A stretch of 64,000 nucleotides of DNA from Curtobacterium sp. TC1 (lineage in GTDB: Bacteria; Actinomycetota; Actinomycetes; Actinomycetales; Microbacteriaceae). Shown piece after piece: positions 51,502 through 58,706 of this stretch. Numbering within the stretch: the stretch's first letter is position 1; the number at the start of each line of letters is the position of its first letter. Position numbers and translations under genes: made by a program. The DNA is taken from the NCBI RefSeq assembly GCF_019844075.1, contig NZ_CP081964.1, positions 1,736,001-1,800,000 of the forward strand. The letters run 5' to 3'. The notes under the pieces are model-generated. The model saw nothing but the letters and a program-made list of their open reading frames with translations, ran no database searches and was not told the origin of the DNA.

Positions 51502-53088
51502 TCAGGCGGGGACGGGGAACGTCGCCGCGACGCGCGAACGCACCTCGGCGCGGACGGCTCGGCGCATCACGGGGGAGAACAGCGAGTGGTCGCCGTCCTC
51601 GACCCGCACGATCGACACCGAGCCGCGCCGGCCGACCCCGCCGTAGCGGCGCAGGGCCTTCTGGCCACCGAGCCGGTCGAACAGGTCGGCGTCGTCCGGA
51701 GCGGCGATCACGACGACGTCGGTGCCGTGCTCCACCAGCGGTCGGACGTGCTCGACGACGCCGCCGACGCGGTCCCGCCGGGCGATCCACTCCCGCAGGG
51801 CCTTCGGCACGACGGCGTTGTACCGCCGGCGAACCCACAGGCGACCGGGCGAGGGGGCGTCGATCGCCCGCACGGCGTCCTCGTAGCTGCCGGGGGCCGC
51901 CGGCTGCCGGCGGTAGTCGTTCGGGCTGATCTCGACGACCAGGCGGGGTGCCTCGTCGACGGACCGACCGGCGAGCCAGGCGCCGGCGCACATCCCGACG
52001 AGCACCAGGCGGTCCGACGGGGTGCCGAGGCCGGCGACGACGGCGGACTGGTCCTCGACCCACTCCTGGGCGAAGAGGAAGCTGCGTTCGTCGTCGCGCA
52101 CGGTGGAGCTCTCACCGGTGGCCCGGCGGTCGACCCGGACGACGCGGGCACCGTCACGGGCGAGCGCCCGGGCGAGGTCGACCTGGTAGTCGGTGGCACC
52201 GACCCGGTGCTCGGCGGCACCGTTGTGCAGGACCACCAGGGGCGCGTCGTGGTGCTGTGCGGACGAGACGGTCTCGACGGCGAACAGTTCGTCCGGACCG
52301 AGGCGGACGATGCGCTCGGACACCCGCCCGTCGACGTCCAGGACCTCGTCGAGCACGGGTGGCACGACCGGTCCCGACGCCGCAGGCGCCCAGGCGTCGA
52401 GCCAGGCGACGGCGGTGTCCACGGCGGCTCCCGGGATCCGCGCGTGGATGCTCGTGCCGTCGAGCAGCTCGGCACTGCCGGGCACCTCGACGGTCTCGAC
52501 GGGCCCGAGGGTCTTCGGGGCACGGGTCTCCGGTCGCACGAGCGCCACGGTCGGACCGGTGCGCGGCGCGAACGCCAGGGCGGAGAGCGCTGCCGCCTCG
52601 TCCGGTTCGACCTCGATGCCGATCAGGCTCTCGACGCCGTCCACGAACCGCTCGGTGCCGATGGTGATGGTCGCCAGCGCGCGCTGCCGGCGGAGCCAGC
52701 CGCGGCCCGAGGCCGGGGCGTCCCAGACGAGCAGGGCGTCGGTCTCCTCGGCGGCGGTCGCGGCGACGAGGGCGGCCGAGGCGAGTCCGACGAACGCGAC
52801 GTGCCGGACCCCGGACGTGCGGAGCACGGCGGCCGCGTGGCGCGCGGACCGGACCTGCGCGTCGGGGTCGGTGTCGGGTGCGCCGTCACCACGTCCGGAC
52901 GGGTCGTAGCGCACCGAGGCGATGCCACGGGCCTCCAGGCGGTCTGCGAGCAGGCGGAGCGTGCGGTAGGCGATGACGCCCTCCTGCCCGAGCGGCGGGC
53001 AGATGACGACCCCGGCCCGCGCAGCGGGCGGCAGCTGCACGGCGGCGCGGACGGCCGGCGAACCGGACCACCCGTGCAGCGTCGTCAC
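51502..53088 (-). CDS. Tandem alpha/beta hydrolase (two hydrolase-like domains)
   Basis: 528 aa with two hydrolase-like halves. Half 1 (~15-230): VVICPPLGQEGVIAYRTLRL, SVRYDPSGRGDGA, nucleophile elbow GLASA (Ser104). Half 2 (~250-528): APLVVLHNGAAEHRVGATDY, VVRVDRRATGES, elbow GMCAG with Cys367 in place of Ser, candidate acid in VIAAPDDADLF, and His in EDGDHSLFSP. Each half resembles surface-polysaccharide-associated serine hydrolases. Start overlaps the ligase stop by 4 nt: last gene of the carrier-protein operon, hence a likely thioesterase or acyltransferase for product release (inference). Confidence 0.8.
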   Translation of the reverse strand: MTTLHGWSGSPAVRAAVQLPPAARAGVVICPPLGQEGVIAYRTLRLLADRLEARGIASVRYDPSGRGDGAPDTDPDAQVRSARHAAAVLRTSGVRHVAFVGLASAALVAATAAEETDALLVWDAPASGRGWLRRQRALATITIGTERFVDGVESLIGIEVEPDEAAALSALAFAPRTGPTVALVRPETRAPKTLGPVETVEVPGSAELLDGTSIHARIPGAAVDTAVAWLDAWAPAASGPVVPPVLDEVLDVDGRVSERIVRLGPDELFAVETVSSAQHHDAPLVVLHNGAAEHRVGATDYQVDLARALARDGARVVRVDRRATGESSTVRDDERSFLFAQEWVEDQSAVVAGLGTPSDRLVLVGMCAGAWLAGRSVDEAPRLVVEISPNDYRRQPAAPGSYEDAVRAIDAPSPGRLWVRRRYNAVVPKALREWIARRDRVGGVVEHVRPLVEHGTDVVVIAAPDDADLFDRLGGQKALRRYGGVGRRGSVSIVRVEDGDHSLFSPVMRRAVRAEVRSRVAATFPVPA

Positions 53089-54038
53089 AGCGCGAGCGCC
53101 GCGCGGACCGGCGCCGGCCAGGCGTCGACGTCCGTGCCGTGTGCGGCGAACAGGGCGATGGTGATGCGCTCCAGTCCGAAGGCGATGCAGGCGCTGTGGG
53201 CGACCTCGCCGTCGGCGGTGCGGAGACCGAACGAGGTGCCGAAGTGGTCCTCGTGCAGGTTCGCCGAGCTGATCGCCGTGGTCGGGTGGTCGTCGCCGTA
53301 GACGGGCGTGACGAACTCGAACTTCAGCGCCTGCTCGACCTGGTTGCGGGCGAGCATCTGCCCGACGCGACCGAAGAAGGGGTCATTGGCGGGGACCACG
53401 TCGATCTCGAGCCCGAACGACTCGAGCAGCTCGCGCATCACCGGGATCCGGCCGTCGCGGTGCTGCTGGGCCGACGCCGGCGTGCCGATGTGCACGAACT
53501 CGTGCATGTGGAAGGCCTGCAGGCGCATCGGGTCGAGCGACGGCTCGCGGCGGAACGAGTCGCCGACGATGTCGAAGAACCGGCCCTCCTGCGGGATCGT
53601 GTCGCCGACCAGGCCGTACACCGGGTGGCAGACCGCGGGGGTGAGCATGAGGTCGGCGGGCTCGAGGAAGCCCTCCCACCGCTCACCGCGCTCGCGGGCG
53701 GCGAGCAGTGCCCGGTGCGTGCGGTCGTCGCCGGTGAAGCCGGAGATCGACGCGGCGAGGTCCGGGAACGACGCGATGTAGTCGGTGCGCTCGAACGCGG
53801 CGAGCGGCTCGACCGGCGGGAACCGCAGCACCTCGGCGTCGAGGTCCTGCTGGCTGCGGACGGCCGCGGCGTCGACGGCCGTGTACACGCGCTCGAACAC
53901 GCCGGTCCGGCCGTACAGCCCGGGGGAGCCGAGGTCGATGAGCACGCGGTCGGCGAGCAGGCGGGCGCGGAGGGCGGCCCGCGCGGCGTCGAGGTCCGGC
54001 GCGGTGGTCGTGCTGGTGGTGGGGTCCGTGATGGTCAC
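53085..54038 (-). CDS. Amino acid:[carrier protein] ligase (class II aaRS-like)
   Basis: 317 aa, a free-standing class II synthetase core without tRNA-binding domain. Motif 2 region SFRREPSLDPMRLQAFHM followed by HEFVHIGTP; motif 3 in ACIAFGLERITIALF. Putative zinc ligands Cys137 (TPAVCHP), Glu180 (HMHEF) and Cys284 (HSACIAF) have nearly the spacing known for the Bradyrhizobium ligase Bll0957, an atypical-SerRS homologue that loads small amino acids onto a carrier protein instead of tRNA. The adjacent carrier-protein gene confirms this reading. Amino acid specificity is not deducible, though glycine or alanine are used by studied relatives. Confidence 0.88.
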   Translation of the reverse strand: MTITDPTTSTTTAPDLDAARAALRARLLADRVLIDLGSPGLYGRTGVFERVYTAVDAAAVRSQQDLDAEVLRFPPVEPLAAFERTDYIASFPDLAASISGFTGDDRTHRALLAARERGERWEGFLEPADLMLTPAVCHPVYGLVGDTIPQEGRFFDIVGDSFRREPSLDPMRLQAFHMHEFVHIGTPASAQQHRDGRIPVMRELLESFGLEIDVVPANDPFFGRVGQMLARNQVEQALKFEFVTPVYGDDHPTTAISSANLHEDHFGTSFGLRTADGEVAHSACIAFGLERITIALFAAHGTDVDAWPAPVRAALAL

Positions 54039-55210
54039 AGGATCACTCCCGTCATGAGGGCCAGGTCGGCGTCGTTCTTGAGGAGACGGTCGTTGCTCAC
54101 CATGACGGCGGCACCGTGGGCGTCTCGGAGGTGTCGGGCGATGCTCATCGGGCCGGAGGCCGCGTACCCCGCGATCCCGACGATGCGGAGCGCCTTCGTG
54201 ACGATGTCGGTGACGCGCTCGGACGCACCGATCTTGAGGGCGTTCGCGGCGAGGGCGTAGGCGCTCGAGGCGAGCACCTCGGGGTCGTCGGCCGCAGCGT
54301 CGAACCGCTCCGCGGCGTGCCGGACCGAGTCGGCGAGGGCCTGCAGGTCGACCAGGAGCTCGGCGAGCCGGAGCGCTCCGGGCGGGGTCGTCCCGATCGC
54401 GGCACGCGCCTGCTCGCGGACCGCGGTCCGGGCGCGCTCGCTCGCCGAGGCGGCGATGCCGAGCCAGACCGAGGCCCAGAGCACGTGCGAGACCGGCAGG
54501 ACCGTCTGCGCCGAGATCGCCGCGTAGTCGTCGCGGAACACCCGGTCGACGGTGGTCTCGGTGTCGAGGATCCAGCCGTTGCTGCAGGTCCCACGCAGCC
54601 CCATCGTGTCCCAGGTCGAGGTCTGCGAGAGCACCATCGAGTCGGTCCGGCAGATGAGCAGGCGCTGGTCGGAGGCCGGGGCGTCTGGGTCGCGGCGGGC
54701 GGTGACGAACACCGCGTCGGCCTCGGTCGCGTACGAGATCACCGGCGCGTCCTTGCGCAGGCGGATGCGGCCGTCGTCGGTGGCCTCGATCGAGCAGGTC
54801 GAACGGCGGGCGTCGCCGCCGACCCCGCGCTCCGTCGTGGCCGAGGCGACGAGCGCGCCGTCCCGGACCGCGGCGATCGTGTCGAGCACGCCGGCACCGT
54901 CGCCGCCGTGCCGCCAGAGCGCCATGACCTGGCCCTGGTGCATCGCGAAGACCATGCCGGTGGCGGCGCAGGCCCGGCCGAGCTCGGTGGCGATCGCCGA
55001 GAGTTCGGACACGGACGCGCCCTCGCCACCGTGCTCCGTGGGGACCGCGGCGGCGAGCAGACCGTACTCGCGCATGGCCGCGATGGCCTCGCGCGGCGGG
55101 CGGGCGTCGCGGTCGACCTCGTCCGCGAACTGGGCGGCGACCGCGGCCACGGCGGCGGCGCGCTCGGCGAAGCGGTCGACGATCGGTGTCGTCGGCAGGG
55201 TCAGGGTCAC
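54035..55210 (-). CDS. Acyl-CoA-dehydrogenase-like flavoprotein acting on a carrier-bound substrate
   Basis: 391 aa. Acyl-CoA dehydrogenase fold: helical N-domain (AIAAMREYGLLAAAVPTEHGG), FAD-binding middle domain (ASATTERGVGGDARR, LSQTSTWDTMGLRGTCSNGW), helical C-domain with IVGIAGYAASGPMSIARHLRD. The canonical glutamate after the terminal RD block is not visible (VMVSND instead), so the substrate is probably not a normal fatty acyl-CoA. Coupled by 4-nt overlaps to the carrier protein and the ligase. By analogy to PltE/RedW, which oxidise prolyl-S-carrier protein, it may desaturate the loaded aminoacyl group (inference). Confidence 0.85.
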   Translation of the reverse strand: MTLTLPTTPIVDRFAERAAAVAAVAAQFADEVDRDARPPREAIAAMREYGLLAAAVPTEHGGEGASVSELSAIATELGRACAATGMVFAMHQGQVMALWRHGGDGAGVLDTIAAVRDGALVASATTERGVGGDARRSTCSIEATDDGRIRLRKDAPVISYATEADAVFVTARRDPDAPASDQRLLICRTDSMVLSQTSTWDTMGLRGTCSNGWILDTETTVDRVFRDDYAAISAQTVLPVSHVLWASVWLGIAASASERARTAVREQARAAIGTTPPGALRLAELLVDLQALADSVRHAAERFDAAADDPEVLASSAYALAANALKIGASERVTDIVTKALRIVGIAGYAASGPMSIARHLRDAHGAAVMVSNDRLLKNDADLALMTGVIL

Positions 55211-55494
55211 GAGGCGAGCTCCGCAGCGGCGACGATCGACTCGACGGTGGCGAAGGTGGAGCGGTTCAGGACCGAGTCGGGGAACTCGACGTCGAGCTCG
55301 GACTCGACCGCGAGCATGACGTTCACGGTGGCGTGCGACGACAGCCCGAGTGCGTACAGGTCGGCGATCGAGGCGACGTCCTGTGCGTCCACGGTCAGGC
55401 GCCCGTGGTCGGCGAGTGCGCGGCGCACGGCCTGTTCGATCGTGGGGTCGAGCAGCGTCGCGGTCGTGCTCGAGTGCTGTGGTTCCTGGTCCAT
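55207..55494 (-). CDS. Dedicated acyl/aminoacyl carrier protein
   Basis: 95 aa four-helix carrier. The attachment site DLYALGLSSHATVNVM gives Ser53 as the phosphopantetheine Ser. The GLSSHATV context differs from the housekeeping AcpP (IDSISMM) and resembles carriers paired with amino acid:carrier-protein ligases. ATG 55494 has a TATGGT box 7 nt upstream (leaderless). First gene of a four-gene operon; stop overlaps the flavoprotein GTG by 4 nt. Confidence 0.9.
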   Translation of the reverse strand: MDQEPQHSSTTATLLDPTIEQAVRRALADHGRLTVDAQDVASIADLYALGLSSHATVNVMLAVESELDVEFPDSVLNRSTFATVESIVAAAELAS

Positions 55495-55501
55495 GCTGGC
55501 A

Positions 55502-55507
55502 ACCATA
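55502..55507 (-). promoter_or_regulatory. -10 box of the carrier-protein operon
   Basis: TATGGT on the minus strand, 7 nt before the carrier-protein ATG, with GTTTCC at the -35 position (55530-55525). The -35 lies inside a repeated GCGGTTTCCCG motif. Confidence 0.6.
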
Positions 55508-55522
55508 AGGAGAACCGGGCCT

Positions 55523-55556
55523 CGGGAAACCGCCGTGCGGGTGCGGGAAACCGCAC
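55523..55556 (-). promoter_or_regulatory. Repeated operator-like motif at the -35 of the carrier-protein operon
   Basis: CGGGAAACCGC occurs at 55523-55533 and 55544-55554, exactly 21 bp (two helical turns) apart. The distal copy is also a perfect inverted repeat GTGCGG-GAAA-CCGCAC (55541-55556). The arrangement suggests a regulator binding on one face of the helix; no regulator gene is adjacent. Confidence 0.5.
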
Positions 55557-55566
55557 GCGATCCGCA

Positions 55567-55590
55567 CCGCCTGTGCCGCGGCACAGGCGG
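55567..55590. terminator. 24-bp palindrome terminating the phosphopantetheinyl transferase gene
   Basis: Perfect palindrome with half-site CCGCCTGTGCCG, 6 nt past the stop of the transferase gene. It separates that gene from the carrier-protein operon promoter, so the two are likely separate transcripts. Confidence 0.65.
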
Positions 55591-55595
55591 GGACG

Positions 55596-55973
55596 TCAGC
55601 GGTCGGAGAGCGCCACCGCCGTGGCGACGGCCAGACCCCGTTCGTGCGCGAGGGACACCGCGATCGCGCCGCACCCGATCGCATCGGCCAGGGCAGCGGC
55701 GGTCCCGGTCAGCTCCACCGTCGGCGCGCCGTGGTCGTCGAGGACGATCGCCACCTCGCGCAGCGGGATCGCCTGGTCCGGTGCGGGGCGGAGGAGCTTC
55801 ACCACGGCCTCCTTGCCCGCGAACCGGGCGGCCAGGCGCTCCGGGTCGTCGCCCGCGTCGGTGCGCTCCCGGACGGTGAAGAGCCGGTCCAGGTACCGCT
55901 CGCCGTGCGCCGAGATGCCCGCCACCACGTCCTCGACCGCGGCGAGGTCGGTCCCGGTCCGGATCGTGCTCAT
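55596..55973 (-). CDS. AcpS-type 4'-phosphopantetheinyl transferase
   Basis: 125 aa, length of AcpS. Metal-binding GTDLAAVEDV near the N-terminus and FAGKEAVVKLL (Lys-Glu for Mg and CoA binding) near residue 52; C-terminal AISLAHE-like segment (AVSLAHERGLAVA). It converts apo- to holo-carrier proteins by transferring the CoA arm. TAGCCT lies 6 nt before ATG 55973 (leaderless). Position beside a non-FAS carrier protein suggests a dedicated role, but it may also be the cell's only AcpS. Confidence 0.9.
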   Translation of the reverse strand: MSTIRTGTDLAAVEDVVAGISAHGERYLDRLFTVRERTDAGDDPERLAARFAGKEAVVKLLRPAPDQAIPLREVAIVLDDHGAPTVELTGTAAALADAIGCGAIAVSLAHERGLAVATAVALSDR

Positions 55974-56041
55974 GGCTGCAGGCTACGCAGGTCGCGGCGG
56001 CACCGCATGCCCGCAGCGGCATGGGCGTCGGGGGCGGTTCG

Positions 56042-56047
56042 TATGAT
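56042..56047 (+). promoter_or_regulatory. -10 box of the nitroreductase/adenylating-enzyme pair
   Basis: TATGAT, 30 nt before the start; AGGGGG (56066-56071) follows as ribosome-binding site 5 nt before ATG 56077. Divergent from the transferase gene in a 103-bp region. Confidence 0.5.
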
Positions 56048-56076
56048 CGGTGCGAGAGACCACCGAGGGGGAACCG

Positions 56077-57126
56077 ATGGCATCACCGTGGACCGGCATC
56101 ATCGAGGACGCGCGACACTACCCGTCGCCGCACAACTCGCAACCGATCGTCGTGCGCGTCGAGGACGACCGCACCGCGACCGTCTTCTACGACCTGCGGC
56201 GGGGGTTGCCGGCGGAGTCGTTCGGCATCCCGTTCGGGCACGTCTGCGCCGGGGTGTTCCTGGCCGGGCTCGAGGTCGTGGCCCGAGCGCACGGCTTCGC
56301 CGTGCAGGAGCGGCTCGACCACGCCGAGATGGACTTCGGCCGGCTCGACGCCGGCGACTCCGGGGCGGCGGACGACCACCTGCACCGGTTGGGCACGGTG
56401 CGCCTGCGTCCGCGGGCGGTCACCGCCGACGACCGGGAGGCCCTGGCCGTCTTCCTGGCACGGCGCACCTCGCGCAGGCCCTACGACGCGACCCTGGTGG
56501 ACGACGCCGCCGTGGACGCCGCGTCCGCCATCGCGTCGGCCGCCGGGCAGCGGTTCCGCACCACGTCCGACCGGCCGACCGTCGACGAGATCGTCCGGGT
56601 CAACCAGGAGACCCTGTTCGACGACCTGCAGCACGACGCCGTGCACGACGAGATCCTGCACTGGCTGCGGTTCTCGAAGCGGCAGGCGGTGACCACCGGC
56701 GACGGGCTGTCGGCGGAGACGATGCTCATGCCCGGACCGGTCCTGCGGTTCGCGATGGAGCACCGTGGGCTGTGGGAGGCACCCGGTGTCGGCGCGGTCT
56801 TCAAGCGGGTGTACCTGTCGACGATGCGCGGGGTCCGGCAGCTCGGGTGGCTCGAGGGGCCCTTCCGCACGCCGGCCGACTACGTCGAGGCCGGCCGGGT
56901 GTTCATGCGGATCTGGCTCGAGTTCAGCACGCGGGGGATCGCCCTGCACCCGTTCGGCACCGTGATCACGAACCCACGGTCGCACGCCGCCTTCGTCGCA
57001 CGTGCCGGCGTCGACGAGTCCGACGGCCGGATGGCCTGGATGCTGTTCCGCTTCGGACACAGCGATCCACCGCCCCTGGCGCACCGCAGACCGGCGGCCG
57101 CCATGACGCTCGGGGGTGCACGGTGA
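56077..57126 (+). CDS. Nitroreductase-family (Acg-like) flavin protein
   Basis: 349 aa. N-terminal ARHYPSPHNSQPIVVRV matches the SP.HN.QP flavin-site motif of nitroreductase-like proteins; RRTSRRPYDATLVDD is the second conserved block of the Acg/TM-nitroreductase branch, and IALHPFGTVITNP the third. Likely FMN-dependent oxidoreductase. ATG 56077 was chosen for its strong ribosome-binding site over an upstream ATG 56050. Overlaps the adenylating enzyme by 4 nt. Probable tailoring enzyme of the adjacent carrier-protein pathway (inference). Confidence 0.8.
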   Translation: MASPWTGIIEDARHYPSPHNSQPIVVRVEDDRTATVFYDLRRGLPAESFGIPFGHVCAGVFLAGLEVVARAHGFAVQERLDHAEMDFGRLDAGDSGAADDHLHRLGTVRLRPRAVTADDREALAVFLARRTSRRPYDATLVDDAAVDAASAIASAAGQRFRTTSDRPTVDEIVRVNQETLFDDLQHDAVHDEILHWLRFSKRQAVTTGDGLSAETMLMPGPVLRFAMEHRGLWEAPGVGAVFKRVYLSTMRGVRQLGWLEGPFRTPADYVEAGRVFMRIWLEFSTRGIALHPFGTVITNPRSHAAFVARAGVDESDGRMAWMLFRFGHSDPPPLAHRRPAAAMTLGGAR

Positions 57127-58706
57127 AGCGCGCGGCGGTCTTCACCGTCGTGTGGGTCGTCGAGACCTTCGTGGCGCTGTTCATGCCCCGCGTCGGCACC
57201 CACAAGCTCCTGCTCACGCCGGGCATCGAGCCGCTCCGCTGGACCCTCGGACGCTGGCGTGCCTGGCGGACCGTGGAGCGGGCTGCGAAGCGGGTACCCG
57301 CCTACGGGGCGTTCCTGGCGGAGGCGGGACGGGCCTCCCGTCCGTTCCGTCTCGACACGCGTGGCGGGATCGCCGCGGCGATCTCGGGCCTGCCCGAGAT
57401 GGACAAGGACTCCTACGTCAAGCGGTGGAGCATCCCCGAACGCTGCGTCGACGGGCGGCTGCCACGGCGCGGCGTGGTCGTCGACGAGTCGAGCGGGTCG
57501 AGCGGCACGCCGACCAGCTGGGTCCGCGGTCCCGACGAACGGCAGGCCACCCGGCAACTGCTGCAGCTCGGGTTCTCGCGCACCGCGAAGGACCTGCCGA
57601 AGCAGCCGTTCGTGCTCAACGCCTTCTCGCTCGGGGCGTGGGCCACGGGCATGAACGTGACCGCGTCGCTCACCGAGTCGTCGATGATCAAGTCGATCGG
57701 GCCGGACCGCGACAAGATCGTGCAGACGATGCGCGAGTTCGGCACCGACTTCACCTACATCATCTGCAGCTACCCGCCGTTCCTGAAGGCGCTGTTCGAG
57801 GACGACCGGCTCGACTGGAGCGAGTACACGATCGTCGCGGCGTTCGGTGGCGAGGGCATCAGCGAGAACATGCGCGCCCACATCGAGCAGTACGCGCAGG
57901 CCGTCCTCGGTTCCTACGGGGCGAGCGACCTCGAGATCAACCTCGGCATCGAGACGCCGTTCAGCGTGCAGCTGCGCCGGGCGATCGCAGCCTCATCCGA
58001 GCTGTCCGCAGCGCTGACGAAGCAGGCCGAGTACGGCGTGCTGCCGATGGTGTTCCAGTTCAACCCGTTCGGGTACCTGATCGAGACGAACGACCTCGGC
58101 GAACTCGTCGTCACCATCACCCGGTCCGAGAACATCAGTCCACGGATCCGGTACAACATCCACGACCGCGGGCACGTCGTGCGGATGCGGTCGCTGCGCC
58201 GGACGCTGCGCGCACACGGCTTCGACGAGCTCGCTGACGCCGCCGAGCTCGACCTGCCCTTGCTGTTCCACTACGGCCGCTCCGACCTGTCCGTCGACTA
58301 CAACGGTGCGGTCGTCGCGCCCGACGTCGTGCGCGACGTGGTCTACGACGACCCCGAGCTGCTCGAGGCCGTCGAGAACCACCGGCTGATCAGCTACGAG
58401 GACGACCGGGGCGACCGACAACTGCACATCGCGTTCCAGCTCGCTGCGGGCGCCGGGTCCTTCGACTCGGACGCGGCGCGCCCTGCGGTCATCGCCGAGC
58501 TGCGGCGGTTGAACAAGGACTTCTCGAACGCGATCCGGACGGCGCCGCCCGGCACCCTGCCCACGGTGGCGTTCTACCCGTACCGGACGGGGCCGTTCCG
58601 CGAGGACGGCAAGAAGCTCAAGAACGAGTACGTCTGGCAGCTGCCCGCCGGCTCGGTGGACCAGTGGGAGCTCGACCTGGCATGGGTCGCGCCGCAGGAG
58701 GCCTGA
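57123..58706 (+). CDS. PaaK/CapK-like adenylate-forming enzyme
   Basis: 527 aa of the phenylacetate-CoA-ligase-like branch of the ANL superfamily. ATP-binding loop SSGSSGTPTSW from residue 123; AAFGGEGISENMRAHIEQ and LGSYGASDLEINLG follow as the usual A4/A5-like blocks; RIRYNIHDRGHVV is the A7/A8 region; GKKLKNEYVWQLP near the C-terminus supplies a candidate catalytic Lys. N-terminal 20 residues are hydrophobic and may associate with the membrane. GTG 57123 overlaps the nitroreductase stop. It would activate a carboxylic acid, possibly for coupling to the carrier-bound amino acid; acceptor unknown. Its DNA contains a GACGGGCCTCCCGTCC motif (57328-57343). Confidence 0.82.
   Translation: MKRAAVFTVVWVVETFVALFMPRVGTHKLLLTPGIEPLRWTLGRWRAWRTVERAAKRVPAYGAFLAEAGRASRPFRLDTRGGIAAAISGLPEMDKDSYVKRWSIPERCVDGRLPRRGVVVDESSGSSGTPTSWVRGPDERQATRQLLQLGFSRTAKDLPKQPFVLNAFSLGAWATGMNVTASLTESSMIKSIGPDRDKIVQTMREFGTDFTYIICSYPPFLKALFEDDRLDWSEYTIVAAFGGEGISENMRAHIEQYAQAVLGSYGASDLEINLGIETPFSVQLRRAIAASSELSAALTKQAEYGVLPMVFQFNPFGYLIETNDLGELVVTITRSENISPRIRYNIHDRGHVVRMRSLRRTLRAHGFDELADAAELDLPLLFHYGRSDLSVDYNGAVVAPDVVRDVVYDDPELLEAVENHRLISYEDDRGDRQLHIAFQLAAGAGSFDSDAARPAVIAELRRLNKDFSNAIRTAPPGTLPTVAFYPYRTGPFREDGKKLKNEYVWQLPAGSVDQWELDLAWVAPQEA

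Follow-up and report, generated by a model that had tools for sequence, protein, structure and literature searches.

Ligases of the Bll0957 type, which resemble class II aminoacyl-tRNA synthetases (aaRS) and load amino acids onto carrier proteins, are known for a specificity for glycine or alanine, as a table in PMC9437257 gives it; that paper gives the role of aminoacylating a carrier as unknown. A related gene neighborhood was described in a 2010 note added in proof (PMC2922099), in which a SerRS-like ligase is linked to a carrier protein, a 'Rossmann fold monooxygenase/dehydrogenase', an uncharacterized conserved protein (for example Atu2574), a glycosidase, and liposaccharide genes. The note predicts a modification of cell-surface sugars, in which the amino acid is altered 'probably via monoxygenation' and then attached to an amino group of the sugar. 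From the gene order, we infer that Atu2574 is a DUF1839 protein, and we equate the amide ligase predicted there with DUF1839; a passage of PMC10318531 assigns DUF1839 a papain-like fold and proposes for it a cell-wall role in the processing of glycans. Here we analyze a related operon in a stretch of 64,000 nucleotides from Curtobacterium sp. TC1 (hereafter the window). The genome carrying it measures 4.16 Mb and has its nearest named relatives in Curtobacterium (best ligase match 97%). An earlier note on this DNA, made from the sequence alone, knew of no described pathway with this set of genes. The neighborhood of ligase, carrier, and flavoprotein had in fact been described in 2010, but the product of the gene set was not found described in the open-licence literature, in which the 2010 note and reviews were the leads.

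The earlier note assigned seven neighboring genes to one biosynthetic system. All seven are present, at or near the positions it gave them, but they make up two modules: a five-gene operon and a separate Acg-PaaK pair. For the operon we propose, tentatively and with not quite an even chance that the whole chain is right, that an amino acid would be loaded onto the carrier, oxidized there, and transferred to an acceptor, most likely a surface glycan. A dedicated phosphopantetheinyl transferase (PPTase) would arm the carrier at Ser53; the ligase would adenylate a small amino acid, for which glycine and alanine are the likeliest candidates, and load it as a thioester; and the flavoprotein would oxidize the carrier-bound aminoacyl group, more probably by N-oxygenation than by dehydrogenation of the PltE/RedW type. 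The second-domain Cys-His site of the tandem hydrolase would then remove the modified group from the carrier and pass it to an acceptor, the best candidate being an amino or hydroxyl group on a cell-surface glycan or on its lipid-linked precursor. The Acg-PaaK pair would stand outside the pathway. The features are as follows (lengths in amino acids, aa).

51502..53088, minus strand: tandem alpha/beta hydrolase, 528 aa, weak TIGR03100 and TIGR03101 matches
53085..54038, minus strand: amino acid--[acyl-carrier-protein] ligase, class II aaRS-like, 317 aa, NF005479 match
54035..55210, minus strand: flavoprotein of the acyl-CoA dehydrogenase (ACAD) superfamily, 391 aa, GTG start overlapping the carrier stop
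55207..55494, minus strand: carrier protein, 95 aa, NF005480 and PP-binding matches
55530..55556, minus strand: promoter/operator-like conserved element GTGCGGNTTNNCGCANCCGCACGGCGG, upstream of the carrier gene
55596..55973, minus strand: AcpS-type PPTase, 125 aa, first gene of the group, PF01648 and TIGR00556 matches
56050 or 56077..57126, plus strand: Acg-like oxidoreductase using flavin mononucleotide (FMN), remote NF047509 match, a neighbor judged to lie outside the system
57123..58706, plus strand: PaaK-like adenylating enzyme with an SSGSSGTPT loop, weak match to an NCBIfam PaaK model, also judged an outside neighbor

The identities that the earlier note had proposed for the carrier, the ACAD-like flavoprotein, the tandem hydrolase, and the AcpS-type PPTase were borne out. 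So were the overlaps it described in the minus-strand operon: read from the gene coordinates, overlaps of 4 nt occur at the carrier/flavoprotein, flavoprotein/ligase, and ligase/hydrolase junctions, with a fourth at Acg/PaaK, and 101 nt lie between the PPTase and carrier genes. A longer mechanical open reading frame (ORF) for the flavoprotein, reaching 55684, was rejected, and the gene was taken as the GTG-start frame at 54035-55210.

A search for related loci returned 37, of which one, a proteobacterial contig with the ligase alone (L037), was set aside, leaving 36 Microbacteriaceae loci. The order PPTase-carrier-flavoprotein-ligase-hydrolase is kept in 35 of them, the exception (L003) being a contig that ends before the PPTase; because this order is conserved in relatives, the operon is more than a chance grouping. 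Acg and PaaK genes are present in 12 of the 36, with L003 and L029 too short to tell. Among 66 genomes of the genus, 50 carry the ligase (48 above the cut-off; G993 and G998 in pieces) and 23 a full-length PaaK (a short weak match in G1024 was not counted): 19 have both, 4 PaaK alone, 31 the ligase alone, and 12 neither. PaaK is found in 19 of the 50 genomes with the ligase and in 4 of the 16 without it, which is no association (Fisher p = 0.39). In the four PaaK-positive, ligase-free genomes, the Acg-PaaK pair occupies the same site beside abH1, peroxiredoxin, and PDH E1, and none of the five operon genes was detected there. Because the pair stands alone at the same site in these four genomes, we conclude that the operon is a discrete, exchangeable block and Acg-PaaK an independent, optional neighbor. 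The view that all seven genes constitute one system, in which PaaK activates a second acid, can draw on the adjacent and divergent arrangement of the two modules and on the distance of ~4-5 kb between the PaaK and ligase starts in 18 of the 19 genomes with both (in G1005 they are on different contigs). We nevertheless regard it as highly improbable, and a single seven-gene pathway was rejected on locus conservation and on the genus co-occurrence counts. A second acid activated by the pair is left unsupported, the pair being a separate, optional neighbor.

The ligase scores 384.8 bits against NF005479, above the curated cut-off of 357, and matches the solved Bll0957 structures (PDB 4h2w/3mey) at E ~1e-75. 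Its residues Cys137, Glu165, and Cys284 occupy the Zn-ligand positions, the Cys/Glu/Cys set of the aminoacylation core that we take to be the zinc ligands. All 35 rows that have partner genes (that of the window included) retain these positions, as do all 15 rows that lack them. The Bll0957-type assignment made earlier is right. The genome of the window has one match to the ligase. Predicted loading of the carrier by this enzyme is well supported by family membership, and the amino acid would most likely be glycine or alanine; as a member of this family, the enzyme would not be expected to charge tRNA.

The carrier protein is conserved in relatives, scores 87.3 bits against NF005480 (curated cut-off 72), and also matches PP-binding; its presumed phosphopantetheine site is Ser53 (codon 55338-55336). 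The PPTase reaches 42.7 bits against PF01648 and 56.6 bits against TIGR00556 (cut-off 45.35), and besides it the genome has two more matches to PF01648. In seven loci (L094, L095, L096, L097, L098, L100, and L105), the PPTase and the carrier form one open frame. Six of these fusions were scanned, and each begins with a PPTase domain that passes the TIGR00556 cut-off, followed by an NF005480 domain of 92-104 bits, also above its cut-off. Across 55 loci with both genes, some of them duplicates, 7 pairs are fused, 42 are separate in the same direction, 4 are divergent, 1 has the carrier first, and 1 is far apart. Since the PPTase is fused to the carrier in seven relatives and the gene order is conserved, the PPTase belongs to the operon, as the earlier note had supposed, and its predicted role in arming this carrier is supported. 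A PPTase-carrier fusion would be an unusual, self-arming carrier.

The flavoprotein had been likened to the PltE/RedW type. At the two classical catalytic Glu positions, which were set indirectly rather than by direct alignment to RedW, it has Ser241 and Val371. None of 40 relatives has Glu at either position, Ser, Ala, Thr, or Arg and Ile or Val being found instead, and His242 and His91 are invariant among the 40. Its score against the RedW model NF045652 (39.6 bits) is far below the cut-off of 650, and a prolyl-carrier dehydrogenase of the PltE/RedW type was rejected by the residue test, no catalytic Glu being present. The best profile match is the nitrososynthase DnmZ; with a structure model of mean pLDDT 91.3, Foldseek ranks a monooxygenase first, and the fold search gives 23-24% identity to DnmZ/KijD3 structures. 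Taken as a whole, the fold searches did not discriminate between a dehydrogenase and an oxygenase. In its passages on these enzymes, PMC10849742 states that the proline dehydrogenases characterized to date keep the catalytic Glu, and that ChmG, an ACAD with Met at the Glu position, is implicated as the N-oxygenase of a carrier-bound amino acid. The flavoprotein likely oxidizes a carrier-bound group, and N-oxygenation is favored because Glu is missing from the classical base positions in all 40 relatives, as in ChmG. A one-step alternative, which overlaps with our proposal, is that the flavoprotein is a dehydrogenase: an imine or enamine would be formed from the glycyl or alanyl thioester, and the base would be His242, Asp374, or some other group. 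We hold this to be a serious possibility, albeit a doubtful one: it has to account for a base position without the Glu that proline dehydrogenases keep, and for the DnmZ and monooxygenase matches that head the profile and fold searches. The missing Glu reduces the question to oxygenation versus dehydrogenation on the carrier.

The tandem hydrolase has Cys367 (codon 51990-51988) and His501 in its second domain and a degenerate nucleophile elbow, GLASA, with Ala103, in its first. In 18 relatives, the second-domain nucleophile is Cys in 17 and Ser in 1, and the His is present in all 18, whereas the nucleophile place of the first domain is taken by Gly (7), Arg (5), Ala (5), or Thr (1). A G-M/L-C-A/S-G elbow is found in 35 of 36 Curtobacterium/Frigoribacterium loci; the contig of the remaining one (L003) ends inside the gene. 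Cys-type alpha/beta hydrolases often act as acyltransferases. The protein is a candidate acyl or aminoacyl transferase or thioesterase, and a transferase role for the Cys-hydrolase is plausible from these residues. Its two halves weakly resemble the exosortase-A-associated hydrolases 1 and 2 (TIGR03100 and TIGR03101), with scores below the cut-offs (56.4 versus 168.45 and 37.7 versus 202.75 bits); in the window the two halves are fused in one protein.

The acceptor was approached through gene context in more distant relatives. Of 398 genomes of the family searched with the flavoprotein, 20 have a match at E 1e-60 or better, and 13 regions were fetched: 12 of these 20 (eight close Curtobacterium were left out) and G1026, L104 being a repeat of the Frigoribacterium locus L032. 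The five genes occur in the same order in 10 of the 13, with flavoprotein identities of 40-65%; in L095 the hydrolase was undetected, L101 is of the DUF1839 type, and L103 is rearranged. Two Curtobacterium genomes (L097 and L105) have the operon at this same site, next to PDH E1 and peroxiredoxin, and there it runs on into genes for a GT4 glycosyltransferase, a double GT4, and an exopolysaccharide polyprenyl glycosylphosphotransferase (TIGR03025, 384.4 versus 295.55 bits when scanned in L097; the L105 counterpart was identified by similarity). Related glycan genes flank the module in L094, L099, and L102. The rearranged region (L103:1432-12988) encodes a WsaF-like glycosyltransferase, an ATP-binding cassette (ABC) transporter, an ATP-grasp protein, an EctB-like diaminobutyrate aminotransferase, and an acyltransferase, and this version possibly uses a different amino acid. 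On a Tsukamurella plasmid (L041), the ligase, carrier, and PPTase sit among glycosyltransferase and exopolysaccharide genes, and the part displayed contains no flavoprotein gene. Loci of the DUF1839 type continue with a GH2 glycosidase.

We tallied glycosyltransferase and glycosylphosphotransferase matches within 8 kb of the ligase. They occur in 7 of 11 other Microbacteriaceae five-gene loci, a count in which queries came from L094, L097, L102, and L103, L105 is almost a repeat of L097, and L098 is weak (54 bits); in 6 of 19 DUF1839-type loci; and in one of the pair L041, itself a query source, and L047, which has none. There are none in the one Frigoribacterium locus, in 9 proteobacterial flavoprotein-ligase loci without DUF1839, or in 15 distant ligase-like loci. 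Nor did any of the 35 loci in the window's own clade give a match within this distance, some contigs being shorter than 8 kb. The glycan context is real in several lineages and unseen in the clade of the window.

This absence is the first point in favor of the main rival, a diffusible small molecule such as an N-oxygenated or dehydro-amino acid freed by the hydrolase, made without Acg-PaaK. The Frigoribacterium operon (L085/L104) is another: it opens with genes for two ABC ATPases and an FtsX permease, placed ahead of the PPTase gene and joined by short overlaps, an arrangement that suggests the operon includes an exporter. No close counterpart of these genes was seen beside the Curtobacterium operons, and weak matches in L021 and L026 lie away from the operon. 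The combination of a carrier, an adenylating enzyme, and an ACAD also follows the logic of pyrrole and N-hydroxypyrrole pathways. Against a diffusible product stand the glycan genes that border the module in several lineages (in two Curtobacterium cases at one and the same site), the GH2 gene beside DUF1839-type relatives, and the retention of the operon in 50 of 66 genus genomes, which we judge high for a specialized metabolite; on balance we consider it unlikely. The earlier note had proposed such a released product; in several lineages, the surroundings of the genes in relatives point to surface glycans, which is not so in the window's own clade.

Transfer to a glycan is the reading we keep, because of the glycan genes of relatives, the GH2 gene in DUF1839-type loci, and the independent 2010 prediction of the same kind. 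The acceptor is perhaps a surface glycan, as the context in relatives and that prediction suggest, although the neighborhood of the window itself does not support it. A more specific version is a Dlt-like decoration: glycine or alanine would be charged, N-oxygenated on the carrier to an N-hydroxy, oxime, or nitroso form, and installed on a surface glycan by the Cys hydrolase, which would replace the papain-like DUF1839 protein. We think it rather unlikely to hold as a whole, and we know of no described example of a Dlt-like decoration with an oxidized amino acid.

The carrier-flavoprotein-ligase trio is found in both Proteobacteria and Actinobacteria; DUF1839 and a GH2 glycosidase often come after it, and in some cases a tandem hydrolase does. 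Among genomes from the phylum of the window, 7 of 296 have a ligase-family match (3 above the cut-off), and among those from its order 10 of 396 do (1 above), its own genome counted in each; for the phylum to which the proteobacterial locus belongs, the figure is 37 of 299 (21 above). In these 299, where both counts come from the same draw as judged by genome handles, DUF1839 occurs in 11, all with a ligase above the cut-off (Fisher p ~1e-14), and ten genomes have a ligase above the cut-off without DUF1839. No match to PF08893 (DUF1839) was found in the genome of the window, in a search in which no control genome matched either; the model is the one matching 11 of 299 genomes elsewhere. Twelve distant ligase-like rows (L051-L054, L059-L061, and L080-L084) form a deep clade of their own (support 100/99) that keeps Cys/Glu/Cys, and none of the partner families was found with them above the search thresholds. 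Another possible context is seen at L072:9003-13307, where a proteobacterial ligase is followed by an Abhydrolase_3 protein, an ORF of 85 aa, an AMP-binding enzyme, and a short-chain dehydrogenase.

GTGCGGNTTNNCGCANCCGCACGGCGG, which lies upstream of the carrier gene, is followed by TTATNGTTGC just before the ATG. The first half of GTGCGGNTTNNCGCANCCGCACGGCGG is matched by a regular expression in 33 of 34 sequences, and the second half is less constant; a Frigoribacterium locus (L032) is plainly without the element in the alignment. In the genome of the window, a search allowing up to 3 mismatches gave one match, the exact one at 55530-55556, and the expectation for the element in the window is 0.01. 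Because a reversed control pattern also gave one match, the exactness of the match, and not the count, is the evidence. The element at 55530-55556 (minus strand) and TTATGGTTGC, upstream of 55494, are strongly conserved and promoter/operator-like in their position before the carrier gene, and the -10-like box would be near enough to the ATG for a leaderless transcript. A perfect 24-bp GC-rich palindrome at 55567-55590, just past the PPTase stop, is a possible terminator; hairpins between PPTase and carrier vary between loci, with 28-bp arms in L002 and shorter ones in others.

For the neighboring pair, the assignments are remote. The Acg-like protein scores 114.5 bits against NF047509, below the cut-off of 199, and the PaaK-like protein has a very weak 24 bits against a cut-off of 700 for a model of haloarchaeal PaaK; a Pfam scan gave no family for either protein. 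A single-sequence structure prediction of the PaaK-like protein (mean pLDDT 32.8) was left unused. In the four genomes with Acg-PaaK alone (L087-L090), other, mutually similar DNA lies between the abH1 and Acg genes instead of the operon; L089, the one translated, has an ORF there with an SHGCVR motif that appears L,D-transpeptidase-like by eye. The flanks of some loci hold apparently unrelated genes, such as those for an Lhr helicase (L047), PheS/PheT (L093), and a PAS-GGDEF-EAL protein (L070).

Several known systems come close to the operon. One is that of the Bll0957 ligases (NF005479; 3mey, 4h2w), with which it shares a ligase above the family cut-off, the Zn-ligand residues, and a vicinal NF005480 carrier; it adds a dedicated PPTase and a Cys-type tandem hydrolase and has no DUF1839. 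With the 2010 SerRS-like ligase neighborhood, it has in common a ligase, a carrier, and a redox flavoprotein, as well as the predicted transfer of a modified aminoacyl group to a surface sugar, but DUF1839 and the glycosidase are missing here, and the operon has a Cys alpha/beta hydrolase, which some DUF1839 loci have too. ChmG, of chalkophomycin, and the N-oxygenases KijD3 and DnmZ resemble the flavoprotein in having an ACAD fold without the catalytic Glu, and the substrate of ChmG is a carrier-bound amino acid; identity to the KijD3/DnmZ structures is low, as given above, and ChmG was compared by description rather than directly. The likeness to the Dlt D-alanylation system would lie in placing an amino acid on a small carrier for a surface polymer; the operon has an aaRS-type ligase instead of DltA, which is of the AMP-binding superfamily, an extra flavoprotein step, and no DltB-type (MBOAT) family among the genes scanned. 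The DUF1839-free operon is a small system with candidate steps in five genes, tied by its relatives to polysaccharide genes, and it makes the 2010 idea of amino-acid-tagged surface sugars testable. What is new relative to these systems is the DUF1839-free variant itself, the operons running into glycan genes, the Glu-free flavoprotein, the Cys hydrolase, and the promoter-like element.

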